This document shows positions 1 through 24,989 of a stretch of DNA of 64,000 nt, piece after piece (the first letter of the stretch is position 1; each line of letters opens with the position of its first letter). The notes below the pieces were generated by a model, which made no database searches, was not told where the DNA came from, and saw nothing but the letters and a program-made list of their open reading frames with translations. The stretch comes from Thalassovita mediterranea (GTDB lineage Bacteria > Pseudomonadota > Alphaproteobacteria > Caulobacterales > Hyphomonadaceae), in assembly GCA_019448215.1 (NCBI GenBank), contig CP080408.1:1550001-1614000 (forward strand). The letters are read 5' to 3'. A program made the position numbers and the translations under genes.

Positions 1-242
1 ATCTCGGTCTCTTCCTTTCGCCGGTTCTGTTCTCGAAAGAGATCCTGCCAGAGGTGATCCAGACCTATTACAATCTCAATCCAATGGTGGGCGTTCTGAC
101 AGGCCTGCGCGGCGCTCTTTTTGCGCCTGAGCATGTCGACTGGGTGTCGCTCGGTATTTCGGCGATCATTGCCGTTGGCTTTACCATTGTTGGGTTATTG
201 CTTCTCGACCGGATGGCCAAAAGTTACGCTGAGCGAGTGTGA
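1..242 (+). CDS. ABC-2 type polysaccharide export permease, C-terminal end (5' truncated)
   Basis: The reading frame is open from base 3 to the TGA at 240-242, so the gene starts upstream of the window. The visible 79 residues contain a phrase typical of Wzm/KpsM/TagG permeases (SPVLFS, then a hydrophilic turn with NLNPM) followed by a last membrane segment (about residues 53-71 of the visible part) and a short basic cytoplasmic tail. Its stop overlaps the ATG of the next gene (TGATG), which encodes a Wzt-type ATPase; the two would form the exporter that carries lipid-linked polysaccharide across the inner membrane. Family assignment rests on the fragment plus this coupling. Confidence 0.8.
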   Translation, partial: LGLFLSPVLFSKEILPEVIQTYYNLNPMVGVLTGLRGALFAPEHVDWVSLGISAIIAVGFTIVGLLLLDRMAKSYAERV

Positions 243-1597
243 TGCCTGATACGCTACCCCAATCTGCGCCCGAAGCGGCGGCCGGCGATGATGAGCGCAA
301 GCTCGTCATGGATGTGCGCGGCCTGTCGAAGCGCTACAGGATGACGTCGCCTGTGACGCGGACAGACAAGGACGGTCACAGCTTCAAGGACAATTATTAT
401 CAGGCGCTCAAGGATGTGAGCTTCAAGGTCTGGTCAGGCGACCGTGTCGGCATCATGGGCCATAATGGTGCGGGCAAGTCGACCTTGTTGAAGATCCTGT
501 CCCGCGTGCTCAATCCGAGTGATGGCGAAGCCTTCATTTATGGGCGGGCGACCTCGCTCCTGGAGGTCGGTACAGGCTTCAATCCGAAGATGACCGGTCG
601 CCAGAACGTCTATCTCAACGCTGCGCTGCATGGCCTGACCCGCAAGGAAATCGACCAGCGCCTCGATGAGATCGTCGCCTTCTCCGAAATTGGCCGCTTC
701 ATTGAGGAACCGGTTGAAACCTATTCGACAGGTATGCGGGCCCGGCTCGGCTTTTCGGTTGCGGCCCACCTCGACCCGGACATCCTGATGCTGGACGAAG
801 TTCTCTCGGTTGGCGACGCGGCCTTCCAGAAGAAATGCCTGGAACGGATGGACGAGATCACCGGCCATGACCGCACACTCATCTTCGTGTCTCACTCCAC
901 CGGGGCAATCCGGCGCTTCTGCGATCGCTGCATCTGGCTCGATCATGGCGAAGTCGTCATGGACGACGATGTGATGGCCGTGACGGAGGCCTATGAGGCG
1001 CAGATGATGAATATCGCTGCGACGTATCAGGCGCCCGAGAAGAGCGACCCGAAAGCGGGCGACGAGAAAAAGAAGGGCGCCAAAGCCAAGAAGCCGGAGA
1101 CGGCTACTGTGCTGGAAGCCGACGCGGACGATGGCTCTGTCGCTGAACTCGTTACCGCGCGTGTTCTCGATGATACGGGCCAGGTTGCCCGCTCGGTGAA
1201 GATCGACACGCCAAGCGCCATCGAGATCGTCTTCGATGTGCATCAAGCGGACATGCGTGTTGAACCTGCGCTCCACGTCAAGAACGAGATCGGCGACCTG
1301 ATGTTCGTCGTCGCCTTCACCGATGGCGATTATCCAGGGGCCATCAACAAACCTGGCCGGTACAAGTGCCGCGCGCGCATTCCGGCCAACTTGCTGAATG
1401 AAGGCCTGCACTATGTGACCGTGGTGATGGTCACGGCTGATCCGCTGACGCGTCACCAGAATGTCGATAATGCCGTCGCGTTCTCGGTGTATGAGCCGCA
1501 AGGCGATGATCTTCAGCGGGCGCGCGGGCGCTATTCGCGCAACTTCCCCGGCGGTCTCAGGCCGCGCCTCGACTGGTCCACGGAGCGCGAAGGATGA
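242..1597 (+). CDS. Wzt-type polysaccharide ABC transporter ATP-binding protein with C-terminal glycan-binding domain
   Basis: 451 residues from the ATG at 242, which overlaps the permease stop; a GTG one codon upstream is also possible. Walker A GHNGAGKST is at 73-81, the YSTGMRARLGF signature near 161-171, and Walker B ILMLDE at 181-186. After the ATPase (to about 260) comes a Lys/Ala/Glu-rich linker (about 270-295) and a beta-rich C-terminal domain (about 300-440) of the Wzt_C type. In studied Wzt proteins that domain recognises the finished, capped O-polysaccharide before export. Its IPANLLN and FPGGLRPRLDW phrases recur in the sulfotransferase-like protein at 21666-22820. Role inferred: ATPase of the ABC-dependent O-antigen or capsule exporter. 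Confidence 0.93.
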   Translation: MPDTLPQSAPEAAAGDDERKLVMDVRGLSKRYRMTSPVTRTDKDGHSFKDNYYQALKDVSFKVWSGDRVGIMGHNGAGKSTLLKILSRVLNPSDGEAFIYGRATSLLEVGTGFNPKMTGRQNVYLNAALHGLTRKEIDQRLDEIVAFSEIGRFIEEPVETYSTGMRARLGFSVAAHLDPDILMLDEVLSVGDAAFQKKCLERMDEITGHDRTLIFVSHSTGAIRRFCDRCIWLDHGEVVMDDDVMAVTEAYEAQMMNIAATYQAPEKSDPKAGDEKKKGAKAKKPETATVLEADADDGSVAELVTARVLDDTGQVARSVKIDTPSAIEIVFDVHQADMRVEPALHVKNEIGDLMFVVAFTDGDYPGAINKPGRYKCRARIPANLLNEGLHYVTVVMVTADPLTRHQNVDNAVAFSVYEPQGDDLQRARGRYSRNFPGGLRPRLDWSTEREG

Positions 1598-5068: not shown

Positions 5069-5131
5069 ACTTTCAGACCGTAAGTGGTGCGCGATTAGTG
5101 TCACCGCTCCAGTCAATTGCCGGAGCCCCAG

Positions 5132-6373
5132 ATGGACCAGACCCCACGTATCGGCCTTTCATATCTTTCCGCCAATCAGGCGATGAAGCATGTCACCCTG
5201 AATGAAAGCCTGCGGCGGCTGGATGCGGTTGTGCAGCTAAGCGTGGTGAGCCGGAGTGAGGCGGCCCAGCCAGAAGCGCCGCTGGCGGCGACATCCTACA
5301 TCCTGCCGACGGACAAGACCGGTGAAAACTGGGATTTCATGGCCGTTGGGGCCATTGCGAGCTTTCAGGACGGCGCCTGGTTCGAGATCGCGCCGCGCGA
5401 AGGCTGGCTTGCATGGATAGAGGACGAAGCGTCTCTTTTTGTGCTGACCGGAGACGGCTGGGAGGCTGTGCAAGGCGCCGGGAGCGGGCCTGCCCTGACG
5501 CTGGGCATCAATTCCGAGGCCGATGAGACCAACCGGCTGACTGTGCGCAGCGATGCCGAACTTCTGACCCATGACGATGTCACACCGGGGACCGGGGATG
5601 CGCGCAAGATCATCAACCGGGCGGATAGCACGAAGGTCGCGTCGGTCGTGTTCCAGACCGATTTTACCGGCGAGGCAGAGTTCGGACTGGCGGCGAATGG
5701 CGGGTTCGAGCTGCGTACCAGCGATGACGGGACGGCCTTCGACACAGCGCTGAGCGTCGACACGGCGACGGCGAATGTTGGGGTGGGTGGTGCGCCGTCC
5801 GGGCGCTTGTCGGTGATCGACCAGAGCGCCGCGACGAACGACCAGCCAACACTGAGCGTCGTGCGTGACGGCTATTTCGCGACGGCCAGCCTCGACACTT
5901 ATGCGACCCCTTCGGCCTATTCATCCTTTTCGATCCAGAAGCGGGCACGCGGAAGTCTCGATGCGCCGCTTCCGGTGCAGTTGGGCGACTGGTGCGGCGG
6001 GTTTTCGTTTCGTGGATTCACGGCTGATGAAACCTGGGCGCAGAGCGCGCTGGTCAATGCGCAGGTCGATGGGGCGGTCTCCGGCGTATCTGTGCCAATG
6101 TCGCTTGGCTTCTGGACCGGTGTTGGCGGCATCAGCGAACGTATGCGGATAACATCTTCGGGCCGGGTCGGTATCGGTACGAGCGAGCCGAGCTGCGCGC
6201 TGCATGTCGCCGGTGCTGTCAGGCTTGGCAGTTCCACCCAGGCGAGCCTCCCAAGCGCTTCGGCCGCAGGCGCGGGCGCGCTCTATTTTGTGCCGGATCT
6301 TGCCGCTGGGGCAGGCGTGATTTTCAGTGATGGGACGACCTGGAGAAGCATGACGACAGGTTCCAGCATCTAA
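5132..6373 (+). CDS. DUF2793 domain protein with tail-fibre-like C-terminus
   Basis: 413 residues from the ATG at 5132, preceded by GGAG at 5122-5125; a TTG at 5117 would add five residues. The first 110 residues match the DUF2793 pattern (PRIGLSYLSANQAMKHVTLNE, FQDGAWFEIAPREGW). From memory, this domain is seen mainly in alphaproteobacterial prophage and gene-transfer-agent fibre proteins. The rest is Ser/Thr/Gly/Ala-rich and ends with the phrase GRVGIGTSEPSCALHVAG, common in phage tail fibres. There is no signal peptide. It lies between the SGNH gene and neuB with no phage genes nearby. It could be a virion or GTA fibre, or a domesticated surface protein. Confidence 0.75.
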   Translation: MDQTPRIGLSYLSANQAMKHVTLNESLRRLDAVVQLSVVSRSEAAQPEAPLAATSYILPTDKTGENWDFMAVGAIASFQDGAWFEIAPREGWLAWIEDEASLFVLTGDGWEAVQGAGSGPALTLGINSEADETNRLTVRSDAELLTHDDVTPGTGDARKIINRADSTKVASVVFQTDFTGEAEFGLAANGGFELRTSDDGTAFDTALSVDTATANVGVGGAPSGRLSVIDQSAATNDQPTLSVVRDGYFATASLDTYATPSAYSSFSIQKRARGSLDAPLPVQLGDWCGGFSFRGFTADETWAQSALVNAQVDGAVSGVSVPMSLGFWTGVGGISERMRITSSGRVGIGTSEPSCALHVAGAVRLGSSTQASLPSASAAGAGALYFVPDLAAGAGVIFSDGTTWRSMTTGSSI

Positions 6374-7598: not shown

Positions 7599-9323
7599 GT
7601 GGGCTCGCTTCTCAGCGACATACGCACAGCCGTAAGGCAATCTGAAGCCTATGCGCCTGTCCGGCGCTGGCGGCTTGAAAGACTGACGCGCCGGCCGGGG
7701 GTTTACCCTGACTGGCGCGTTCTGCTTTCCGGGCATGAACAGGACTGGGCCGCCGCGAGCGAAAGCGCCGATGGCAAGCGCATCCTGATCGCGACAAGTC
7801 TTGGGCTTCATTTTACCGCGAATACGGTCGACACGCTGATGGCAGCGGCGCTGACGCTGCGCGGGGCCAAGGTCGATATCGGCTATTGTGATGGCCTGCC
7901 GGCCTGTCAGGTGATCGAGCATACGCTCGCGCCCAGCCTGCCACGTATTGCCAAGGAGGGCCCGGGACCGGATTTTTGTGGGGCATGTACCAGCGCAGCA
8001 GACCGGGTGAGTTCGCCTCTGGGCCTTGATGTCCGCAGGTTCTCCGACGTTCTGAGTGAGAGTGACCGCGCCGAGGCGAAGGCCTTTGGTGAGCGCTGGC
8101 AGGGTCATCGCAGTACCGAACATGACGACCCGCGCGTCATGCACGCCTATGCCGGCGCGCTGCGCTTTTTCGGCAAGGGCGACCTTGGCGATAGCGATCT
8201 TGAAACGCAGATTTTCAGCCGCTACCTCGCGGCCGCCTCGCTGTCTGATGCGGCGGCGCGCAGGTTGATCGACGCGCATCAGTACGATGTTATCGTCGCC
8301 CACCACGGCATCTATGTGCCGCAGGGCCAGTTCGCCGAAGCGGCGCGCGATACCGACACGCGGCTTGTGACCTGGCACCCGGCCTATCGGCGCGGGCGTC
8401 TGATCTATCAACATGGTGACACGTATCACCGCGCGATGATCGACGAGCCGGAAAGCGTCTGGAACCAGCGTCCGCTGAGCGCGGCTGAGACCGCAGATCT
8501 CGACACCTATCTCGCCTCACGTGAGACCGGGGCGCAGGACTGGATCACCTTTCAGAGGCGCGACCCGGAAAGCCTGCAATCGACCTATGCCGCGCTGGAC
8601 CTCGACCCGGCAAAGGACACCTATCTGCTGGCGGCGAATGTCGTCTGGGATGCGCGGCTGAATTATGCCCAATCAGCCTATGGCCACATGATTGAATGGG
8701 CGATCGACACGGTGTCTTGGTTTGCGAAGCACCCGGATCGCCAGCTGGTCGTGCGGTGCCATCCGGGCGAAGTGATGAACAGCCCGCGCGCCTCTGACAG
8801 GCTGGACGATGCGCTCCGCGCCGCCTTCCCGGAGATGCCGGAGAATGTGCGGCTGGTCTCGCCTGAAAATGACATCAACACCTATTCGATCGCGCAGCTG
8901 TCCAAGGGCGCGCTGATCTTCAACACCAAGCTCGGCATGGAGCTGTCGGCCCGCGGCATGCCTGTGGTGGTGGCGGGCGATGCGTGGATCCGCGGGAAGG
9001 GTTTCGGGCGCGACGCCTATGACCGTGAGTCCTATTTCCGCCTGCTGGAGAGCCCGGGCACGTTCGACCCGCTGACCGAGAGCGAGATCGAGGCGGCGCG
9101 GCGCTATGTCTACCACTTCTATTTCCGCCGCTGCATTCCATTGAAGGCGCTGGACGGGTCTGCCGGGTGGCCACTGACGCAGCTGCATGCAGACGCTTTT
9201 AATCTGGCAAAGCCGGGCGTGGACCCGAATATGGACGCGATTTGCGAGGGCATTCTTGCTGGCGCGCCATTTGAGACGATAGATGATGAGAATGCGCTGG
9301 ACCGCGCGGGGGAGATGCCATGA
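7599..9323 (+). CDS. Capsule polysaccharide synthesis-like protein (KpsC/KpsS-type, candidate nonulosonate/Kdo-type transferase)
   Basis: 574 residues from a GTG 13 bases after neuB; the Shine-Dalgarno purines lie very close to it, so the start is uncertain. The C-terminal half has a GT-B-like nucleotide-sugar region: VVRCHPGE (about 382-389), a Pro/Glu/Asn stretch near 420, then FNTKLGMELSARGMPVVVAG (about 437-456), which resembles the region capsule-synthesis (Kdo transferase) proteins use to bind CMP-sugars. The N-terminal third has an FCGAC Cys pair of unknown meaning. It sits between neuB and a HAD phosphatase, overlapping the latter by 4 bases. Inference: it may transfer the nonulosonate made by this module. 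Confidence 0.65.
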   Translation: MGSLLSDIRTAVRQSEAYAPVRRWRLERLTRRPGVYPDWRVLLSGHEQDWAAASESADGKRILIATSLGLHFTANTVDTLMAAALTLRGAKVDIGYCDGLPACQVIEHTLAPSLPRIAKEGPGPDFCGACTSAADRVSSPLGLDVRRFSDVLSESDRAEAKAFGERWQGHRSTEHDDPRVMHAYAGALRFFGKGDLGDSDLETQIFSRYLAAASLSDAAARRLIDAHQYDVIVAHHGIYVPQGQFAEAARDTDTRLVTWHPAYRRGRLIYQHGDTYHRAMIDEPESVWNQRPLSAAETADLDTYLASRETGAQDWITFQRRDPESLQSTYAALDLDPAKDTYLLAANVVWDARLNYAQSAYGHMIEWAIDTVSWFAKHPDRQLVVRCHPGEVMNSPRASDRLDDALRAAFPEMPENVRLVSPENDINTYSIAQLSKGALIFNTKLGMELSARGMPVVVAGDAWIRGKGFGRDAYDRESYFRLLESPGTFDPLTESEIEAARRYVYHFYFRRCIPLKALDGSAGWPLTQLHADAFNLAKPGVDPNMDAICEGILAGAPFETIDDENALDRAGEMP

Positions 9324-11793: not shown

Positions 11794-14109
11794 TTATGGG
11801 CGCCGGCGCAGGTGCTTGCCGAGGCCGATCTCGTGCAGGGCTTCGCGCTGCTGCAGGATGCGGACGAGGGCACGCTTCTCGTCGATCTCAGCCTGAAGCA
11901 CCTGCTTCTCGACTGCGAGCGCCTCGATCTCTGCTTCAAGCGCGGCTTGGCTCGCGGCGGCTTCGTCGAGTTCCCGGCGCTGATCAGCGCGCAGCTCACG
12001 GCTGACCTCAAGATGCTTGCGGGTTTCCTTGTGCGCCGCGCGCTCCTGTGAGAGCAGCATTTTCAGGTCACGGTGGGTCTTCTCGTGAGCGGCCTTCTCG
12101 CGTTTGAGGGCGTTGCGCTCCTCTGAAATGATATATTTCAGATCGCGGTGCGTTTTCTCATGCACGGCTTTCTCTTTGGCGAGCTCTGCGCTGGTCTGTT
12201 TGTGCGCATTTCGCTCCTCAGAGAGGATTTGCTTGAGGTCCTGGTGGGTCTTCTCGTGCGCGGCCTTTTCCTTGGCGAGCTCCGCTTCCAGGCGCGCGCG
12301 CGTCTGCTCGTGAGCGGCTTTCTCTTTCGAGATCAGAACATCGAAATCCCGGCGGGCCGATTCCTGCGCTGCCTTCGCCGCTTCGAGCTTCTGTTGCAGA
12401 TCATTCGACAGGTTGCGGAAGGCTTCCATGCGCTCATTGAGCGAGTCACGCGCGGCGAGGACCGTCTGGAGCTTGCCTTCGAGATCGGTGCTGCGAGCTT
12501 CGGCGTGTGTGAGTAGCCGCTTCGTTGCGCTGAATTCCTGCTTCGACGCCTTCAGGGCCTCATCGGCCTGCGCAAGCTGGTTTTCGAGATCCTTGCGGGC
12601 GGTCATCGACTCCAGCAGCGACTTCTTCATCTCCTCTGCCCGCTCATATTGGCGGTCGAAGGAGGTGCGGATGTCGGCGATCTTCTGGGCGTGCTCGTCC
12701 TCGCGGACTTTCAGTTTCTCATGGAGTGAATCGGTGACCTTCTGGAAGGCCTCGATGCGTTCCTTGTATTTCTCGACAGTTTCGCCGAGCTGGTCGGATT
12801 TCAGACGCAGGCGCTTTCTGTCCGCGTCGGCCTTGTCGTAATGGCCCTGAAGCCCGTTGCGATAGGCTTCTGCGCGCTCGATCTCTGTGCGAAGGCGGCT
12901 GACTTCGTTCTGGATGCGCTTGGAAAGCGGTGTCTTCCCGCCTGTCGAGGGGAACTCTGCCTCGAGCCGTTCGACGTCAGCGATCTTGTTCCGGACATTG
13001 CCGAACTCTCGCAGGATGAGGTCTGCGGCGTTTTCCAATGGAGCCGATTTGGCGGCCTCGACCTCATTATTCAGGGCGGCAAAGAAGTCGCTCGCCCAGG
13101 CGCAGGTCTCGCCCGTGAGGAATACGGTGCCGGATGTGTCGGCAGGGATGTCGCTTGCCTTCTTGAGCTTCACCAGTGTCTGGCTGCCATCATAAAGCTG
13201 GGCCTCGAAGCCCGCGCTGATGAGGGGCTGAAGCTCCTCAATGAGGTTGGCGCGTGCGTCCTCGGTGAGATTCTTGTGGCTGTATTCAAGCATGACGAGC
13301 GCCGACTTGCAGCGCTCCAGCGTCTTGTGGGCGCCGGCCAGGACTTCTGCCTCATGACCTTCGGTGTCGATCTTCAGGAAGTCGATCCGGTCCAGGGCGG
13401 TGACCGGCGCGCATTTATCGAGCGCGACCATGTCGACGGTTGCGGTCTCGAGCACAGGCGAGCGGCCCGTGTCACGCAGGCCGCTGAAAGCCCCGTCGGT
13501 CGCGACGAAAAACTCAGCCTTGCCGCCCTTTTTGGAGGCAGCGGCATTGATCGCTTCAACGCGGCCTGAAAGCCCATTCTGGCTGATATTTTTCTTCAGC
13601 AGATCGAATGCTGATGGAAGCGGCTCAAGCGCGATGACCTTGCCCTTTTGGGCGATATGGCCCGCATGGACACCGAACAGTCCGAAATTGGCGCCGATAT
13701 CAACGGTAGTGGCAGCTTTGGGAAGGGTGGCATTGAGCGCGTTCAGGACGTCGGCTTCATTCATGTTGCCGATGAAAAACTCGGCACCAAAGAGGTCCCC
13801 AAGGTCGACATCGAAACGCAGTCCGTTTTTCAGCTCGGCGGTGCCTGTCTCGCCGGATCCGGCCGGATACAGCGAACGGAGCCTCGTGCGGATCAGACCA
13901 CTCAACTCGATGCGCGATTTGGCGTCCCGGAGCGTCGTGAGGAGGCGGAAAAGCGATAGAAGGTCCGGCTCTGGCGACTTGCCCTTCAGAAGATAGGGCG
14001 CCCGGCGATCAGCTGGCGCAGCCGCGGGCGCAGACGCTGCGGCCTTTTTAGCCGGCGTCTTCTTCGCTGCAGTCTTCTTTTTGTTTTGTGCCTGCGCCAT
14101 GCCTGTCAT
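11794..14109 (-). CDS. FkbM-type methyltransferase with a very long coiled-coil tail
   Basis: 771 residues; an internal ATG three codons in (14100) is an equal start. The N-terminus is Lys/Ala-rich (residues 5-30). Residues about 100-320 form an FkbM methyltransferase: TTVDIGANFGLFGVHAG (SAM motif I, about 134-150), ALEPLPSAFDLLKKN, and FLKIDTEGHEAEVLAGA (about 242-258). From about 370 to 765 the protein is one highly charged coiled coil, with near-identical repeats containing EKAAHEKTHRDLK, encoded around 12060-12335. FkbM enzymes usually have about 250 residues, so the tail is exceptional. It is convergent with the acyltransferase gene (5-base gap). Substrate: probably a glycan hydroxyl; not proven. 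Confidence 0.87.
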   Translation of the reverse strand: MTGMAQAQNKKKTAAKKTPAKKAAASAPAAAPADRRAPYLLKGKSPEPDLLSLFRLLTTLRDAKSRIELSGLIRTRLRSLYPAGSGETGTAELKNGLRFDVDLGDLFGAEFFIGNMNEADVLNALNATLPKAATTVDIGANFGLFGVHAGHIAQKGKVIALEPLPSAFDLLKKNISQNGLSGRVEAINAAASKKGGKAEFFVATDGAFSGLRDTGRSPVLETATVDMVALDKCAPVTALDRIDFLKIDTEGHEAEVLAGAHKTLERCKSALVMLEYSHKNLTEDARANLIEELQPLISAGFEAQLYDGSQTLVKLKKASDIPADTSGTVFLTGETCAWASDFFAALNNEVEAAKSAPLENAADLILREFGNVRNKIADVERLEAEFPSTGGKTPLSKRIQNEVSRLRTEIERAEAYRNGLQGHYDKADADRKRLRLKSDQLGETVEKYKERIEAFQKVTDSLHEKLKVREDEHAQKIADIRTSFDRQYERAEEMKKSLLESMTARKDLENQLAQADEALKASKQEFSATKRLLTHAEARSTDLEGKLQTVLAARDSLNERMEAFRNLSNDLQQKLEAAKAAQESARRDFDVLISKEKAAHEQTRARLEAELAKEKAAHEKTHQDLKQILSEERNAHKQTSAELAKEKAVHEKTHRDLKYIISEERNALKREKAAHEKTHRDLKMLLSQERAAHKETRKHLEVSRELRADQRRELDEAAASQAALEAEIEALAVEKQVLQAEIDEKRALVRILQQREALHEIGLGKHLRRRP
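12060..12335 (-). repeat. Tandem coding repeats in the FkbM coiled-coil tail
   Basis: Four imperfect copies of a unit containing (A/V)HEKTH(R/Q)DLK, or a shortened HEQTRARL form, separated by SEERNA(H/L)K-type linkers, lie in this stretch on the minus strand. At the DNA level the segment GTGGGTCTTCTCGTG and close variants recur near 12073, 12149, 12243 and 12301. The repeats are in phase with the heptad pattern, so the tail length could vary between strains by slipped replication or recombination; that variability is inference. Confidence 0.7.
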
Positions 14110-16184: not shown

Positions 16185-17246
16185 ATGTCAGTTGTCAAAG
16201 AAAATGACCGTAACGGGGATGTGGGCGAAGCAGTGGCGTCGCCGTCCCGCGACTACGAGTCCGAGATTGCGGCACTGAAAAGTGACCGCAACCGCTGGAA
16301 GAGCGAGGCTCAACAGCTTGCCGAGCAATTCCAGAACATGCCCACGATCGATCGTACGTACCTTATGACGAAGGGAACGATGCGCCAGCGGCAGACCTAT
16401 CACATGCTCGCGCGCGAGGTTAAGGCGGCTGAGATCCAGCGACGCCGTGAACTGGGCCAGAAATACCTGGCCGAACAGAAGCTGGACCCGGAGACGGCGA
16501 AGCTGGTCGTGCTGCAGAAGGATGGCTTTGCCTCTCTCGACCTCAGCCATCACCCACTGGTTCAAGACGCCGTCAAGGAATGCCTTGATACTTACCAGGA
16601 GGCGATCGATTCCGGCAAAGAGCTTCTGTCCAAGGACAGCCTGGAATTTGTCGGGGATGCCGGTTGGCCATTCATCGCGAGCGGCGGTGTCTACAAGCTG
16701 GCGACAAGCCCGCTGCTTCTGGCGCCTGTCATCCGCTATTTCGGCATGATGCCGATCATGACGGGCTTTGGCCTGCTGTCAGCGCGCAATGAAGAGTTCT
16801 ATCCGCATTCGTCCCAGCGCCTGCACTTCGATCCGGAAGACCGCACGCAGCTGAAGGTTTTCTTCTACATCACGGATGTGGACGAGAAGTCCGGTCCGTT
16901 CATGGCCGTTCCGGCCGAGGACAGCGCCGTCCTCTACAATGACCCGGATTTCAGACTGGCCCGTCAGGATGACAGCGCCGTTCGGGAAGGATCTATCCGC
17001 ACCTTTACCGGCCCGGCTGGTACGGCGATTTTCTGTGATACGTGCCGCTGCCTGCATGCAGGTGCACGGCCTGGTGACAAGAAGCGTCTTATGCTGAGCA
17101 TCGAGTACAATATGCCAACGCATCTCGCCTCCAAGCTTTGGGACGGCGACCCGGTGCCTGAGCGTCGCTGCCGGACGCTGAAGGTCAGGGACTATAATCT
17201 GAACGAGTACACCGAAGCCTTGTTGGCGCACCCCAAGCCCGTGTAG
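16185..17246 (+). CDS. Phytanoyl-CoA dioxygenase (PhyH)-like Fe(II)/2-oxoglutarate oxygenase, copy 1
   Basis: 353 residues. A charged N-terminal coiled coil (about 22-50) precedes a double-stranded beta-helix oxygenase. Iron-binding candidates are His214 and Asp216 (RLHFDPED) and His291 (CRCLHAGA), with Arg301 placed to bind 2-oxoglutarate. SGPFMAVP (about 236-243) and GPAGTAIFCDT (about 276-286) are the loop phrases expected in PhyH proteins. Such enzymes hydroxylate small molecules or lipids; some act in secondary metabolism and sugar pathways. A close paralogue follows 56 bases downstream. The substrate is unknown; the context suggests a glycan or its lipid carrier. Confidence 0.8.
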   Translation: MSVVKENDRNGDVGEAVASPSRDYESEIAALKSDRNRWKSEAQQLAEQFQNMPTIDRTYLMTKGTMRQRQTYHMLAREVKAAEIQRRRELGQKYLAEQKLDPETAKLVVLQKDGFASLDLSHHPLVQDAVKECLDTYQEAIDSGKELLSKDSLEFVGDAGWPFIASGGVYKLATSPLLLAPVIRYFGMMPIMTGFGLLSARNEEFYPHSSQRLHFDPEDRTQLKVFFYITDVDEKSGPFMAVPAEDSAVLYNDPDFRLARQDDSAVREGSIRTFTGPAGTAIFCDTCRCLHAGARPGDKKRLMLSIEYNMPTHLASKLWDGDPVPERRCRTLKVRDYNLNEYTEALLAHPKPV

Positions 17247-17302: not shown

Positions 17303-18307
17303 ATGCCTGAGACAATGCAGGACGTGAACGTCGACAAAATCGTCGGCGAGCGTGACTTCTGGCGAAACAAGGCCGAGCAGTTCATGGCGGTCTCGCGCTC
17401 TGCAGCCGTGTTCGAGCGCGATTTCGTGATCAGGCAAGGCAGCATGAAGCAGCGCAAGCAATATCATGAGCTTGCCCGCTTTATCAAAAGCGAGGAGATC
17501 GCGCGCCGCGAAGAACTGGGGTGCCGCTATTTGGCTGAACAGTCGCTCGCGCCTGAGACGTCGGCGTTCGAAATACCGAAAGATATCGCGCACGCGTCCA
17601 TCAATCTCAGCCACGACCCGCTGGTGCAGGGGGCCATCGCAGAGGGGCTGAAGTCCTATGAGGATGCGGTCGCGTCCGGCCGGGAGTTCCTGTCAAAGGA
17701 CAGCCTTCAATTCCTTGGGTCGGCGGGCAAGCCATTCGGCGCCGACAGCGCAATCTTCAAACTGGCGACCAGCCCGCTCCTGCTCGCGCCGGTTATCCGC
17801 TATTTCGGCATGTTCCCGATCATGACCGGTTTCGGTGTGACGCTGGCAAAGAATGAGGAGTTTCATCGCAAATCCTCGCAACGTCTCCACTTCGACCCGG
17901 AAGACCGCGCCCAGCTGAAGGTGTTCCTCTACATCACCGATGTCGATGCCAATTCCGGCCCGTTCATGGCGGCCGCGGCAAAGGATTGCGAGTTCCTGTT
18001 CGAGCGCCCCGACTTCGTTCTCGACCGGCAGGAAGACAGCGTTCTGCCTGAGGGCGCTCTGCACGAATATCACGGGCCCGCCGGCACGATCATCTTCACC
18101 GATACGTGCCGGTGCCTGCATGGCGGCGGGCGTCCCGGCAATCGTGAGCGCCTGATGCTGAGCATGGAATACAATATGCCAACCTATCTTGGCTCAAAGC
18201 TCTGGGAAGGCGACCCGGAACCCGAACGCTGCCGGACGGAGAATATCAGGGTTGAGAACCCTGATGAGTTCATGAAAGCCCTGCTCGCGCACCCGGCGGC
18301 TGGCTAG
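17303..18307 (+). CDS. PhyH-like Fe(II)/2-oxoglutarate oxygenase, copy 2
   Basis: 334 residues, colinear with the preceding protein and sharing long identical stretches (FKLATSPLLLAPVIRYFGM, SQRLHFDPEDR). All candidate active-site residues are kept: His196, Asp198, His273 and Arg283. The N-terminal coiled segment is shorter than in copy 1 and begins with RDFWRNKAEQF. Differences cluster in the N-terminal third and in the segment between Asp198 and His273, which lines the substrate pocket in related enzymes. This suggests an old duplication with different substrates or sequential hydroxylations. AGGGA precedes the ATG. The pair and the downstream sulfotransferase appear to form one operon. Confidence 0.8.
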   Translation: MPETMQDVNVDKIVGERDFWRNKAEQFMAVSRSAAVFERDFVIRQGSMKQRKQYHELARFIKSEEIARREELGCRYLAEQSLAPETSAFEIPKDIAHASINLSHDPLVQGAIAEGLKSYEDAVASGREFLSKDSLQFLGSAGKPFGADSAIFKLATSPLLLAPVIRYFGMFPIMTGFGVTLAKNEEFHRKSSQRLHFDPEDRAQLKVFLYITDVDANSGPFMAAAAKDCEFLFERPDFVLDRQEDSVLPEGALHEYHGPAGTIIFTDTCRCLHGGGRPGNRERLMLSMEYNMPTYLGSKLWEGDPEPERCRTENIRVENPDEFMKALLAHPAAG

Positions 18308-18390: not shown

Positions 18391-19530
18391 ATGCTCGTAC
18401 ACTTTCACATACCGAAGACGGCGGGCACCAGCACAAAGCGCGTCATCGAGAGCTGGTATCAGCTCTGCCGGGTTGAGCAACTTCCGGACGTGGAGCAGCT
18501 TCGGGGCCGCTCGGACAGGGACATATGCGTTTCGAGCCATTTCTCATCGGCCATCTTCGGTGAGGACGGCGCGCTGACGGATGCGCTGCCTGAGATGGTG
18601 GGCAATCCGGACTATAAGGTCTTTACCCTCCTGCGTGATCCCTTGGATCAGCTCGTCTCGTCCTATTACCATTTCCGCAGCAAGAGCGATAAGAACATCC
18701 CGTCGGATATCGTTTCATTCGCGGAGTTTCCGAGCCGCTTTCTCTACAGAAATTCGATGTCCGCCTATGATGAGAAGGCGCGGGACGATGTGATCGGCTC
18801 GTTCTATTTCATTGGAGATACATCAGACATTGATGGCTCGATGAAGTATCTGGCAGAGCTTCTGGGCAAGCCTCCGGTCAATGTGCCGAAGGAGAATGTC
18901 GGAGATCGCGACGAGCTCATCCTGCAGCTCACATCAAGGCAGCGCTCACGCATCGAACGCGCCCTTGCGCCGGAATACGAGCTGTTCGAAACGGTGCGCG
19001 ATATGCTGCGGGAGCGCAGCTTCACCGGGAGCGCTGAGACGCGCGCGGACCAGTTCGAGTTTACAAGGAAACTGGAACGGCGAATTCGAGCGCCGCAGCT
19101 TCCCGGCTTGGACGGCGCTGAAGAGGCTGATCTGCAGTCAGATATCCGCGAGCGCGAAGAAAACTATAATCAGATCATCTCATCGAAATCGGCGCGCATT
19201 GAAGAACTTGAGGTGCGCGAAGCGAGCCTCAGCGATCAGCTTAGTGATGAGCGAGACCGCAGGAATGCGGCGGAGACAGAAGCCCGGGCGATCAAGCGCC
19301 TGCTCGAGAAAGAGCAGCAGCTGAGAGCTGAGCAATACGCGCTTCTGGAAGAAACCATGCTGGAAGTGAAAGTCTGGCAGCGCAGATTGAATGAGCGCGG
19401 GAGCGTCCGCGCGATCATCGCCGCAAAGATCAAGCGGGTGCTACGTGAATTCTGGGCATGGTCCAAGGCAGGCCATGTCGTGGCGCACATCCGGAATATC
19501 GCAAACGGCGTCGCGAAGCGCTTTCGCTAG
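18391..19530 (+). CDS. Sulfotransferase-like protein with C-terminal coiled coil
   Basis: 379 residues; GGGG precedes the ATG. The N-terminus shows the PAPS 5'-phosphosulfate loop HIPKTAGTS (6-14) and the 3'-phosphate motif LRDPLDQLVSSYYHFR (81-96, with Arg82 and Ser90), typical of sulfotransferase family 2 and heparan-type enzymes. The catalytic domain runs to about 225; residues about 245-330 form a Glu/Arg-rich coiled coil and the last 50 residues are strongly basic, as if for membrane or scaffold attachment. It is likely to sulfate a surface glycan using PAPS. A second protein with the same start motif is encoded at 21666-22820. The acceptor is unknown. Confidence 0.8.
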   Translation: MLVHFHIPKTAGTSTKRVIESWYQLCRVEQLPDVEQLRGRSDRDICVSSHFSSAIFGEDGALTDALPEMVGNPDYKVFTLLRDPLDQLVSSYYHFRSKSDKNIPSDIVSFAEFPSRFLYRNSMSAYDEKARDDVIGSFYFIGDTSDIDGSMKYLAELLGKPPVNVPKENVGDRDELILQLTSRQRSRIERALAPEYELFETVRDMLRERSFTGSAETRADQFEFTRKLERRIRAPQLPGLDGAEEADLQSDIREREENYNQIISSKSARIEELEVREASLSDQLSDERDRRNAAETEARAIKRLLEKEQQLRAEQYALLEETMLEVKVWQRRLNERGSVRAIIAAKIKRVLREFWAWSKAGHVVAHIRNIANGVAKRFR

Positions 19531-20487: not shown

Positions 20488-21558
20488 TCAGGCGTCCTTC
20501 CAGACCGGGTCGCGCTGCATGACTTTGAGGTCGGACTGGACCATCTCACGGGCAAGATCGCGCGGTGAGGTCTCGTGGCTCCAGCCGAGCTGCTTCTTCG
20601 CCTTGGCCGGATCGCCGAGCAGAAGCTCAACCTCGGTCGGGCGGAAGTAGCGTGGGTCGACCTCAACGAGGCATTTGCCGGTCTCGGAGCAATAGCCCTT
20701 TTCGTCGACGCCCTTGCCCTTCCATTCGAGCTTGATGCCAACATCTTCGAAGGCCCACTCGACGAACTGGCGCACATGGGTCGTCTCACCGGTGGCGAGG
20801 ACATAGTCGTCCGCCTTGTCCTGCTGCAGCATGAGCCACATGCCGCGGACGTACTCACGGGCATGGCCCCAGTCGCGCTGGGCGTCGAGGTTACCGAGAT
20901 AGAGCTTTTCCTGACGGCCAAGCTTGATGGCGGCAGCGGCGCGCGTGATCTTGCGGGTCACGAAGGTTTCACCGCGCAGCGGGCTCTCATGGTTGAAGAG
21001 GATGCCGTTGGAGGCGTGCATGCCATAGGCTTCGCGGTAGTTCACCACGATCCAGTAAGCATAGAGCTTGGCGGCAGCGTAGGGGCTGCGCGGGTAGAAG
21101 GGGGTGGTTTCCTTCTGTGGCACTTCCTGAACGAGGCCGTAAAGCTCCGAGGTGGACGCCTGATAGAAACGGGTCTTGTCTTCCATGCCGAGGATACGGA
21201 TCGCCTCGAGCAGGCGAAGCGCGCCCACGGCGTCGGCGTTCGCGGTGTACTCAGGCGTCTCGAACGAGACCTGGACGTGGCTCTGTGCGGCGAGGTTGTA
21301 AATCTCGTCTGGCTGGGACTCCTGGACGATCCGGATGAGGTTCGTCGAATCGGTCATGTCGCCATAGTGGAGGATCAGGCGCGGGTCATCGACATGCGGG
21401 TCCTGATAGAGATGCTCGATACGCCCAGTATTGAACGAGGAAGACCGGCGCTTCACGCCATGGACCGTATAGCCCTTCTCCAGAAGGAGTTCGACCAGAT
21501 ACGCCCCATCCTGTCCCGTCACGCCAGTGACCAGCGCTGTCTTGTTTTTCGATGTCAT
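20488..21558 (-). CDS. gmd: GDP-mannose 4,6-dehydratase
   Basis: 356 residues. It converts GDP-D-mannose to GDP-4-keto-6-deoxy-D-mannose. [16 protein letters not shown] (about 10-25) is the NADP-binding loop; [44 protein letters not shown] (about 130-139, Ser/Thr of the triad) and [10 protein letters not shown] (catalytic Tyr/Lys) are all present, as is [19 protein letters not shown]. The family assignment is unambiguous. A short gap separates it from the sulfotransferase-like gene upstream. No strong ribosome site is visible. Confidence 0.96.
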
Positions 21559-21665: not shown

Positions 21666-22820
21666 TTATTGAGGTCTGGCGCTCTTTTGCCACTCAAGAA
21701 GGGGCCTGATTGGTCCCGGAAAAGGCGACTGCCAGTCGCCCGCGGCCGACATGCTGTCCGGTGCCGGAGGAGCGATCTCAGCTGTGACCAGCGATTCGCT
21801 GACATCCCAGCGCTGGACGGGGTCGGGGTCGCAAAGCGACGCCTCGAATTCATAGCGGCTGATATTCAGGAGATTGGGAGGGATCGATGCCGATACGCTA
21901 TGCACACCGTTTGTAAATCTGTCGGATCCATCGTCAGGCGTGTAGGCAATCGTGAAGATCGTCTGCTCATTCCATAGCACCCGAAAAGCAGGCTGAACGC
22001 GTTGGGAAGCGTCATGCACAGTAAACTTGAGATGAAGAAATAGCGGCTCGTCGCAAGCGAACGGCCCATTTATATTCGTCTCACCGCCCGAGAGGTAGAA
22101 TTCGTTGATGGACGCTACGGGCGTTTCGTTCTTACCGATCGATCTTTGCGGATTGGTAGTCTGGCGTGAGATATCGAGAAACTGGTCGGCGCCTTTCCAG
22201 TGGAGAGGTGCCTGGCCTGAGATCGATGCTCGCACGCGCTCGTAGATTTTTCTGTCTAGTGCGAACTTTTTTGTCAGCATCTCGATATCTGTATCTGACA
22301 GGGTCGCGATCTGTTCATCGCGGATGCCAATCCGCTCCTTCGGGACCTCAACTACTGGCTTGCCGACCCGGTTTGCCAGAATGGCGATACTTGTCTGGAT
22401 ACTCTCGGTCAGTCCGACAAAGAAGAAGTTCGACAGTCTCGCCTCGATCTCTTCCTCGCGCTTGATCTGGAGAGCCCTGGACAGGCTAAATTCGAAGGGG
22501 CGCTGGGCATATTGTGCCAGGCTCAGCGTTAAATTGCTGTGGCGCATCTGGTGGTAATAGTAGGAAACGAAGTGCTCGACGGGGTCTCTTACGAAGGTAA
22601 GGACCTTGAGCTCCGGATTCCCAGCCAGACCTGGTTCTCTCTTGAGCAATGACGCGCTCGTGCCGACCAACCTGCCGCCGTAGTGGCCAGTCGTGCACTC
22701 CGGTTCACGAAACGGACCAAACTGCTTGGCAGAATCTCTCTGCAGCTTGAACCATTTTTCAAGAACGCGCTTCACGCTCGTCCCGGCGGTCTTCGGGATG
22801 TGATAGAAAACGTATGCCAA
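21666..22820 (-). CDS. Sulfotransferase-like enzyme fused to a Wzt_C-like glycan-binding domain
   Basis: 384 residues if started at the TTG at 22820 (AAGG 5 bases upstream); the open frame runs to 22934 but the family start motif begins right after this TTG. PAPS loop HIPKTAGTS is at 7-15 and VRDPVEHFVSYYYH is the 3'-phosphate motif. The catalytic part ends near 245. The C-terminal 125 residues resemble the Wzt_C domain of the transporter ATPase at 242-1597: VQPAF versus VEPAL, IPPNLLN versus IPANLLN, and FPGPIRPLLEW versus FPGGLRPRLDW. This suggests binding to the exported glycan. I know of no described enzyme with this architecture, but cannot search. Confidence 0.78.
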   Translation of the reverse strand: MAYVFYHIPKTAGTSVKRVLEKWFKLQRDSAKQFGPFREPECTTGHYGGRLVGTSASLLKREPGLAGNPELKVLTFVRDPVEHFVSYYYHQMRHSNLTLSLAQYAQRPFEFSLSRALQIKREEEIEARLSNFFFVGLTESIQTSIAILANRVGKPVVEVPKERIGIRDEQIATLSDTDIEMLTKKFALDRKIYERVRASISGQAPLHWKGADQFLDISRQTTNPQRSIGKNETPVASINEFYLSGGETNINGPFACDEPLFLHLKFTVHDASQRVQPAFRVLWNEQTIFTIAYTPDDGSDRFTNGVHSVSASIPPNLLNISRYEFEASLCDPDPVQRWDVSESLVTAEIAPPAPDSMSAAGDWQSPFPGPIRPLLEWQKSARPQ

Positions 22821-22953
22821 TGTAACCTTGCTCCCCACATTCTGTTGGGCATTGAGAGACCGGCCAGTGGCGTGGACTCCTGAGCATTGGCTTATTGAGG
22901 CATGAGGCGCATGGCCAGTCCGTACAGCACCCACGGTCTGGCATCGTGCCCCT

Positions 22954-23970
22954 TTATCGGGTTTTCAGCGGCTTCCACCACCACTCATTCTCGATGAACC
23001 AGTCGATGGTACGGGCGAGGCCTTCCTCAAATGTGACCGAGGATTTCCAGGCGAGTTCGCTCTCGATCTTGCTGGCATCAATGGCGTAGCGAAGATCGTG
23101 GCCGGGGCGGTCCGTTACAAATTGGATAAGGTCGCGGCGCGGCTTGTCTGCGGGGCGGCGGGCATCGATGAGGTCGCAAATCGCCTCGACGACCTGCAGG
23201 TTCGTGCGTTCTGAATTGCTGCCGATATTGTAGGTTTCGCCCGGCGCGCCCTTCAGCGCCACGGTGGCGAGCGCATTGGCGTGATCTTCGACAAAGAGCC
23301 AGTCGCGGACATTCTCGCCTTTGCCGTAGACGGGTAGCGGCTTCATCGCGAGCGCGTTCAGGATCACAAGCGGGATCAGCTTTTCCGGGAAGTGGTAGGG
23401 CCCGTAATTGTTCGAACAGTTCGTCACGATGACTGGCAGGCCATAGGTGCGGCCCCAGGCGCGGGCGAGGTGATCGGATGAGGCTTTCGAAGCCGCATAG
23501 GGGGAGGACGGCTCGTAGCGGGAGTCTTCGGTAAAGATGCCGGAATCGAGCGGCAGGTCGCCGTAGACTTCATCGGTCGACACATGGACGAAGCGGAAGC
23601 TGTCGGACTTGTTCAGGTCTTCATCCCAATAGCGACGCGCCGCCTGCAGCATGGTGCTGGTGCCTACGATATTGGTCTGGATGAACTCACCCGGCCCTGT
23701 GATCGAGCGGTCGACATGGCTCTCGGCAGCGAGGTGAAGGACCGCATCGATCCTGTTCTCGACCAGAAGACGGTAGACGAGCGCCTCGTCGCAGATGTCG
23801 CCCTGAACGAAGCGGTAATTATCGAGGTCCTCGATTGGCTTCAGCGAGCTGAGGTTGGCAGCATAGGTCAGCTTGTCGAGATTGGTCACGTTGTGACCGA
23901 GGTCGCCAGCCAGGTGCCGGCAGACAGCTGAACCAATAAAGCCAGCGCCGCCCGTTACGAGAAAATTCAT
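22954..23970 (-). CDS. rfbB: dTDP-glucose 4,6-dehydratase
   Basis: 338 residues from the ATG at 23970; the open frame continues upstream but the family start ([14 protein letters not shown]) is here. It catalyses the second step of dTDP-L-rhamnose synthesis. NAD loop [11 protein letters not shown] is at 6-16; [12 protein letters not shown] (about 82-93), [13 protein letters not shown] and [11 protein letters not shown] (catalytic Tyr/Lys) are hallmarks, as is [19 protein letters not shown]. It is divergent from rfbA with a 146-base gap, unlike the usual co-directional rfbBDAC order. Length agrees with RmlB proteins. Confidence 0.96.
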
Positions 23971-24116
23971 GTCGCGTCCGTGTGCAGTCCATCCTGATCG
24001 TGCGGGGCTGGCGCCGGTGTGGCCAGCTTGACGATGCTCAAGGCCGGATGTCATAGAACGCCCCTCAAGTCGAGGCCAGTACGGCCACAGATGATTGGTA
24101 GAGCAGGGGATTTGGT

Positions 24117-24989
24117 ATGAAGGGCATCGTTCTGGCCGGGGGAACCGGTTCACGCCTGTTCCCGATGACGATGGCAGCATCGAAACAGCTGCTGCCTGTG
24201 TTCGACAAGCCAATGGTCTTTTACCCGATCAGCGTCCTCATGCTTGCGGGTATCAAGGACATCATCATCATCACGACACCCCACGACCAACCTGCATTCG
24301 AGCGGCTGCTGGGTGATGGAAGCCGCTTTGGTGTGAACTTTACCTTCCGCGTCCAGCCTGAACCGAAAGGCATCGCGCAGGCCTTCACGATCGCCGAAGA
24401 CATCATCGACGGGGAGCCCTGCGCCCTCGTTCTGGGCGACAATATTTTCTATGGCGGCGGACTTGGCGGCCTTCTGCTCAAGGCGGCAGCGATCAGTGAC
24501 GGCGCAACCGTCTTCTCCTATCCGGTCAGCGACCCGGAACGCTATGGCGTTGTGGAGTTCGGCGCGGACGGGCGCGCGGTCTCCATCGAAGAAAAGCCGG
24601 AGCAGCCAAAGTCGAACCATGCGGTCACCGGCCTCTATTTCTACGACGCCAGCGTGTGCGAGCGGGCCAAGGCTCTCAAGCCATCGAAACGCGGCGAGCT
24701 CGAGATCACCGACCTCAACCGGACCTATATGGAAGAGGGCAAATTGTCGGTGCAGCCGCTTGGGCGCGGGTTTGCCTGGCTCGATACGGGTACGCCTGAC
24801 AGCCTGCTTGATGCGAGCCAGTTCGTGGCGGCCATCGAGAAGCGGCAGGGCATGAAGGTTTGCTGTCCTGAAGAGATCGCCCTGCACCGCGGCTTCATCA
24901 CGCGGGCTGAGTTGGAGAAGAATGCAGACTTCTACGGCAAGTCTGAGTACGCCGCGTATCTGCGCAAGTTGCTCACTCAGAAAGGCTAG
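24117..24989 (+). CDS. rfbA: Glucose-1-phosphate thymidylyltransferase
   Basis: 290 residues. It makes dTDP-glucose from dTTP and glucose-1-phosphate, the first step of the dTDP-rhamnose pathway. [13 protein letters not shown] (6-18) is the nucleotide-binding signature; [16 protein letters not shown] (about 22-37), LGDNIFYG (about 108-115), [21 protein letters not shown] (about 157-177) and [16 protein letters not shown] match RmlA. GTATG precedes the start, with a weak ribosome site. It is the only rightward gene of the four rfb genes and ends three bases before rfbD, which converges on it. Confidence 0.96.

Follow-up and report, generated by a model that had tools for sequence, protein, structure and literature searches.

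Gene content of the glycan export locus

The window (the whole stretch of 64,000 nucleotides that was analysed) begins within the 3′ end of the gene for a Wzm permease (1-242, plus strand), which starts outside the window and matches ABC2_membrane (L075:13407-14243). It is followed by the gene for Wzt, the ATPase of this glycan exporter, which has a C-terminal carbohydrate-binding domain (CBD; 242-1597, plus strand). The transferases encoded in the locus comprise GT2 and GT1 glycosyltransferases, an acyltransferase, two FkbM methyltransferases and two sulfotransferases (STs). Among the sugar genes are a NeuB-like synthase and a nonulosonate-type cytidylyltransferase, both scoring below the NCBIfam equivalog cut-offs, and the locus also codes for GDP- and dTDP-deoxysugar enzymes.

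One of the STs (18391-19530, plus strand) has a coiled-coil-like tail and a basic C-terminus but no CBD. The other, encoded at 21666-22820 on the minus strand, is a fusion of an ST with a CBD. Its slot is flanked on one side by gmd, coding for GDP-mannose 4,6-dehydratase (20488-21558, minus strand), and on the other by an rmlB-like gene for a dTDP-sugar dehydratase (22954-24213, minus strand; these are the ORF limits, and the start is probably near 23957).

As cysD, cysNC and cysQ are encoded in the flanking block, PAPS can be made. These genes were considered as a dedicated PAPS supply of the locus, and this was rejected: cysNC occurs in all 29 Henriciella genomes (above the cut-off in 28), also in the 23 that lack this Wzt, so that its position near the locus does not indicate dedication.

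Several further genes deserve mention. Two tandem genes beside the STs (16185-17246 and 17303-18307) code for similar proteins and are conserved across the syntenic loci of Henriciella. For the first, there is a weak PhyH match (E 0.1), and for the second there is none at E 1e-5, while in genome G008 both match one single place. Two proteins of 560-574 residues (7599-9323 and L075:9240-10922) both match one gene in G704 and in G308, and one of the pair has a Capsule_synth match; they may be enzymes that build the polymer where this Wzt type is encoded. A DUF2793 protein is encoded within the glycan locus at 5117-6373. This family is associated with phage or gene-transfer-agent proteins.

The fusion gene and its sulfotransferase half

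The plus-strand frame over 21666-22820 contains several stops and the coding strand is the minus strand. When read from a TTG at 22820, which is common to all four orthologues, the gene codes for 384 residues; the open frame extends upstream as far as a GTG at 22934. The GC content of the fusion gene (0.552) is below that of the 14 other genes measured (0.573-0.639).

Residues 1-215 (22176-22820, minus strand) form a Sulfotransfer_2-type ST domain according to Pfam and fold matches. The N-terminus scores above the curated Pfam cut-off for Sulfotransfer_2 (PF03567; 25.0 bits, with a cut-off of 22), is related to the ST domain of the paralogue at 18391-19530 (35%), and takes the place of the ABC ATPase domain, which is absent from the fusion. 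The first-pass annotation had read two PAPS-binding motifs in this half, and both are present and invariant in the four fusions: HIPKTAGTS (residues 7-15; 22776-22802, minus strand), which we take to be the 5′-phosphosulfate loop, and VRDP (residues 77-80; 22581-22592, minus strand), presumably the motif of the 3′-phosphate site.

In the predicted full-length model (pLDDT 82.5, pTM 0.66), the PDB fold matches at ranks 1-16 are all Wzt chains. Sulfotransferases follow with the chain 3rnl at rank 20 (rmsd 8.1) and heparan sulfate (HS) 6-O-sulfotransferase at ranks 22 (5t05, rmsd 12.7) and 34 (5t03), so that rmsd values are between 8 and 13 when 3rnl is included. The fusion thus shares the PAPS-site motifs and, loosely, the fold of the Sulfotransfer_2 family and of HS 6-O-sulfotransferase, but it is bacterial and bears a CBD. 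According to our home-made coiled-coil score, it has no coiled-coil ruler behind the catalytic domain; the sole heptad-like stretch (residues 167-204) lies inside the ST.

The C-terminal domain is related to Wzt carbohydrate-binding domains

The CBD of the fusion comprises residues 232-384 (21669-22127, minus strand) and is supported by sequence, profile and fold comparisons. It had been proposed to be Wzt_C-like on account of two motifs shared with the exporter ATPase. Both are present in the fusion and collinear with Wzt: IPPNLLN (residues 313-319; 21864-21884, minus strand) corresponds to IPANLLN, and FPGPIRPLLEW (residues 367-377; 21690-21722, minus strand) corresponds to FPGGLRPRLDW. From the alignment, the latter is placed at the C-terminal strand that is exchanged in Wzt CBD dimers.

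The homology itself was confirmed by several approaches. Over 125 residues, the C-terminus of the fusion is 32% identical to the window Wzt (BLASTP, E 5e-14), and a search of its own genome with the fusion returned Wzt with E 1e-11. When the fusion CBD was compared by hhalign with the Wzts from loci of this type (locus-type Wzts), a match of 99.2% was obtained (E 8.4e-20 over 150 columns), and a profile built only from the nine Wzts recovers all four fusions (E 3e-17 to 8e-21).

The domain is divergent from typical Wzt_C domains. Searched with PF14524 (Wzt_C), the fusion gives no Pfam match at E up to 1, and even the C-terminus of the window Wzt stays below the cut-off (22.6 vs 30.4 bits). Compared with a profile of 22 general Wzt_C domains, a profile of the fusions alone gives a weak match (probability 11%, E 0.0027), while the joint profile, made from the fusions together with the locus-type Wzts, matches it with 95.9% (E 6e-9). 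No PDB sequence was matched at E up to 10, either by the fusion-only profile or by the profile of the nine locus-type Wzts. The tie of the fusion CBD to CBDs of solved structure thus runs via the locus-type Wzts and the fold.

A model predicted for the CBD alone (pLDDT 80.6, pTM 0.76) has nine strands, with low confidence for residues 135-137 and 139-147 of the domain, before the last strand. Its 12 best PDB fold matches are all Wzt chains (E 9.4e-6 to 9.0e-5), namely the CBD of Escherichia coli O9a and that of Aquifex aeolicus, the latter both on its own and within the transporter. The Kdo-cap reader (5hnp/5hno) is found at ranks 19, 20, 22, 23 and 39, amid NPC2, RhoGDI and GM2-activator chains. 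As the alignments used for both predictions included Wzt rows (9 of 13 for the CBD model and 6 of 22 for the full-length model), the fold match depends in part on the sequence result. With this proviso, the predicted fold is that of the Wzt CBDs (A. aeolicus 6o14/8dky, E. coli O9a 2r5o, Kdo-cap reader 5hno/5hnp), in agreement with the structural similarity that had been proposed. The Wzt CBDs sit on an ABC ATPase whereas the fusion CBD sits on a sulfotransferase.

Distribution of the fusion

The fusion is found in 4 of 29 Henriciella genomes. These are four of the six genomes with this Wzt CBD type, while it occurs in none of the 23 genomes without it; such a co-occurrence would have a chance of 15/23751 among independent genomes, but these are not independent. 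The six Henriciella loci are syntenic. In two of these genomes (G006 and G009) the fusion is absent and the gap between gmd and rmlB measures only about 160 bases, whereas the window has about 1395 there. In G004 the fusion and gmd are on either side of a contig break. The fusion is thus an accessory, dispensable gene. The paralogue at 18391-19530 was not found in G008. Over the six loci, both STs occur together in three cases, the coiled-coil-like form is found alone in two, and the CBD form alone in one.

A search for the two-domain architecture in other genomes, as had been suggested, returned the four Henriciella and none beyond. At E up to 1e-5, the fusion occurs in 4 of 105 genomes of the family, all from Henriciella; the same four were recovered from 299 genomes of the order, and only the window's own fusion from 385 genomes of the class. 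These genome sets overlap, those for order and class are samples, and in the latter two only part of each genome's candidates was scored where the first look gave many. The joint CBD profile has eight matches in 7 of the 385 class genomes, and the sole match that is not on an ABC ATPase is the window's own fusion. There was no match to an ST-CBD fusion in 72,556 plasmid records, and 81 stretches of viral contigs that matched the pattern could not be confirmed as such a fusion. A scan of genome contigs returned two Henriciella loci, the same records as G015 and G004; the contig set of that scan may omit records near the window's own.

We also surveyed 249 Pseudomonadota genomes with PF14524 and found 65 matches in 58 genomes, all of them on ABC ATPases (assigned by motif patterns, and by eye for L098 and L099). 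This survey had no match in the genome of the window (G000) and so missed the fusion itself; it bounds only typical Wzt_C domains. As a Pfam-based survey would miss a fusion this diverged, its rarity elsewhere is not proven. A published fusion of an ST with a Wzt CBD was not found in the literature searched, which was limited to openly licensed papers.

The sugar-contact pocket of the fusion differs from that of Wzt

According to the first-pass annotation, the fusion carries the same reader as the exporter. If its CBD read the same epitope as the exporter CBD, only export-ready chains would be sulfated. The two domains belong to the same family and are encoded in the same locus, and no genome searched has the fusion without this Wzt. 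We analysed the positions which, according to the available text of Spellmon et al. (PMC9445017), hold 3-O-methyl-mannose in the A. aeolicus CBD. The pocket was mapped by sequence alignment at low identity, with three MAFFT modes that agree except in the shortened trap loop, for 13 rows (four fusions and nine Wzts) at positions 299, 300, 313, 346, 348, 350, 353 and 362 (A. aeolicus numbering).

The four fusions read FRAESCDV (twice), FRGESCDI and FKAESNYL at these positions. The Henriciella Wzts read LHATVVDN, LHATAVDS, LHATVVDS (three genomes) and LHASVVDS, and the other locus-type Wzts read IHATGVDM (another genus), LHATVVDT (G704) and LHAGAEDV (G308). The class consensus is the same at only two of the eight positions, 313 (A) and 353 (D). 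The other six differ: 299 is F in the fusions but L/I in the Wzts, 300 is R/K instead of H, 346 is E instead of T/S/G, 348 is S instead of V/A/G, and 350 is C/N instead of V/E. Position 362 is V/I/L in the fusions and N/S/M/T/V in the Wzts, with V found also in the Wzt L024. None of the eight columns is identical in all 13 rows, and the pocket of the fusions is more polar than that of the Wzts. The A. aeolicus contacts I299, L300, N313, T346, A348, H350, M353, W362 and V380 are not kept in the fusions at all, while the nine locus-type Wzts retain T346 in seven cases, A348 in two and I299 in one.

There are features that both classes share, namely the consensus A313, a D-P in the trap loop, and P at the partner-chain contact 380, and most of the 22 general Wzt_C domains lack A313 and both prolines. 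However, Wzts from a different genus (IHATGVDM) and a different family (LHATVVDT) largely retain the Wzt pocket, from which the fusions depart, and the different pocket residues argue against one shared ligand of the two CBDs. The two motifs that prompted the comparison were considered as signs of a shared ligand and had to be rejected as such, because versions of them are present in other Wzts. By eye, IP-x-[NH]-[FL]-L-N is found in three of six further alphaproteobacterial Wzts, G-x-[IV]-[RHL]-P-x-L-x-W ends four of the six, and at least one of the two motifs is found in five; they are family-level motifs. We therefore do not retain the claim of a same reader and regard a common epitope as decidedly unlikely. 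The proposal that the exported glycan is sulfated with the help of a reader is supported in so far as a CBD-bearing ST is encoded inside an ABC-exporter locus, but not with respect to identical specificity.

It is the tail of the domain, not the pocket, in which fusions and Wzts are most alike (43% identity vs 26% in the body). Of the 21 tail columns, 8 are identical in all 13 rows, compared to 13 of the 124 others (Fisher p 0.003). According to the accessible part of PMC9445017, Wzt CBDs dimerise by exchange of their C-terminal strands and a CBD supplied in trans works. The fusion CBD could thus swap C-terminal strands with the Wzt CBD and place the ST on the exporter without reading any sugar. 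Against such docking, the tail is not enriched among the columns that are invariant within each class (8 of 15 vs 19 of 43, p 0.56) and the strand motif has counterparts in other Wzts, so that the conservation of the tail may merely reflect self-pairing. We consider docking alone to be unlikely.

Within the fusions, conservation of the pocket is not exceptional (3 of its 8 positions are invariant, compared to 52 of 116 positions outside pocket and tail). This is also what a lost pocket would be expected to look like, and the CBD might be a leftover or have a purely structural role in folding or dimerisation of the ST, with no glycan binding. However, the CBD is under strong purifying selection. 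For the closest pair of fusions, dN is 0.12 for the ST and 0.14 for the CBD while dS is 1.1 and 1.5, respectively. Over all six pairs (Nei-Gojobori), dN is in the range 0.12-0.45 for the ST and 0.13-0.40 for the CBD, with dS above 1 throughout (saturated in 3 of the 12 comparisons). As judged from these values, both halves are under purifying selection, the CBD to an extent comparable to the ST, although the sample of four fusions, all from one genus, is small and non-independent. Constraint is stronger on the Wzt CBD than on the fusion (dN 0.05-0.12 in six pairs). We consider it extremely improbable that the CBD is a leftover or a purely structural domain of this kind.

Candidates for the terminal modification of the glycan

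The caps named in the parts of PMC9445017 and PMC11231755 available to us are methyl, methylphosphate and Kdo, and according to the latter, terminators of ABC-exporter glycan pathways carry coiled coils. Based on this published description, the best candidate for a chain terminator in the locus is likely an FkbM methyltransferase with a long coiled-coil-like tail (11794-14109, minus strand; coiled-coil-like segments at residues 395-641 and 694-764), which would add a methyl cap. Such a cap would suit the pocket of Wzt. Relatives of its N-terminal 330 residues are encoded at eight of nine loci with this Wzt type, including the window; none was found on the 13-kb contig of G308. With the home-made score and 30 shuffles as control, the tail exceeds all shuffles at seven of the eight loci, the exception being G704 (115 heptad-like windows, with a shuffle mean of 55 and a maximum of 127).

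The ST paralogue resembles this arrangement at a smaller size. Its tail has 36 heptad-like windows in the window sequence (shuffle mean 7.5), followed by a net charge of +9 in the last 45 residues. Both this protein and the FkbM protein show the layout of a catalytic domain plus coiled-coil-like region that is known from WbdD/WbbB-type terminators as far as these are described in the text at hand, whereas the fusion has no coiled coil. This suggests a further scenario, in which sulfate itself is the export cap, with the STs of the locus writing it and the Wzt CBD reading it. Each of the six Henriciella loci, and also G063, has one or more STs of the family, and the order of catalytic domain, coiled-coil-like region and basic tail in the paralogue is as described for terminators in the portion of the literature covered. 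On the other hand, G704 and G308 have this Wzt type, and whole-genome searches at E up to 1e-5 gave no ST match in either (for G308, scoring covered 5 of 7 first-look candidates). In addition, the heptad signal of the ST paralogue exceeds all 30 shuffles in only two of six genomes (the window and G063, not G015, G004, G006 and G009). The FkbM methyltransferase is the more constant partner, which points to a methyl cap, and sulfate is not among the caps listed above. A sulfate cap read by Wzt is thus very doubtful in our view.

An elaborate version of this scenario would make sulfate an undescribed export signal, with writing and checking split between the ruler-type ST (18391-19530) and the CBD-bearing ST (21666-22820), the CBD form docking on the exporter by strand exchange. 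In view of the weak coiled-coil signal of the paralogue in most relatives, we see only a slim chance for it.

Comparison to known systems

The nearest published parallel that we found is the terminator of Klebsiella pneumoniae O7, for which the available part of PMC11231755 describes a methyltransferase-kinase-CBM-coiled coil architecture with an Ig-like carbohydrate-binding module (CBM). In that text, the function of the CBM is left aside by its discoverers. Both proteins modify a glycan of an ABC-exporter pathway, and their binding modules are likened here by description. The O7 protein is a methyltransferase-kinase with a coiled-coil ruler while the fusion is an ST without a ruler.

In Aeromonas salmonicida, ORF19 of the wbsalmo cluster codes for a stand-alone protein of 216 residues with an ST domain and adjoins wzt (PMC4483657). 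Like the fusion gene it is an ST gene in a Wzm/Wzt glycan cluster, but no CBD is described for it in the text that we could draw on, and in the same text the authors report no sulfate for the O-antigen. By analogy, an ST beside wzt in the absence of reported sulfate would count against an easy inference of sulfation.

A proposed CBD-tethered sulfotransferase

The two-domain architecture is confirmed, and it is conserved in a single genus. The interpretation that we favour, giving it about an even chance, is that the fusion is a CBD-tethered ST which sulfates the polymer of the locus prior to export, with a recognition or docking specificity of its own. It would be a cytoplasmic PAPS-dependent carbohydrate ST that has a CBD where its paralogue has a coiled-coil-like tail. 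The CBD would most likely tether the enzyme to the lipid-linked polymer made by the locus; sulfate would be added, and the chain would then be exported by Wzm/Wzt. As its pocket has diverged from that of the exporter CBD, what the fusion CBD holds is probably not the cap checked by the exporter but another terminus or repeat of the polymer. Judged by sequence comparison, the weak match of the fusion-only profile to general Wzt_C domains and the ordinary conservation of the pocket speak against this interpretation.

The CBD is known to serve as the checkpoint of the exporter in ABC-exporter glycan pathways. Here, it is found on a modifying enzyme, and the same locus holds paralogues with either a coiled-coil-like tail or a CBD. 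As there are natural genomes with one, the other, or both ST forms, what a CBD does in a modifying enzyme is directly testable.

A different combination of Wzt and enzyme may exist in another Pseudomonadota genome. An 856-residue frame (L065:178-2745, minus strand) codes for an ABC ATPase and a Wzt_C domain followed by about 420 residues, which by eye look radical-SAM-like (CxxxCxxC). This frame is possibly a Wzt fused to a modifying enzyme.
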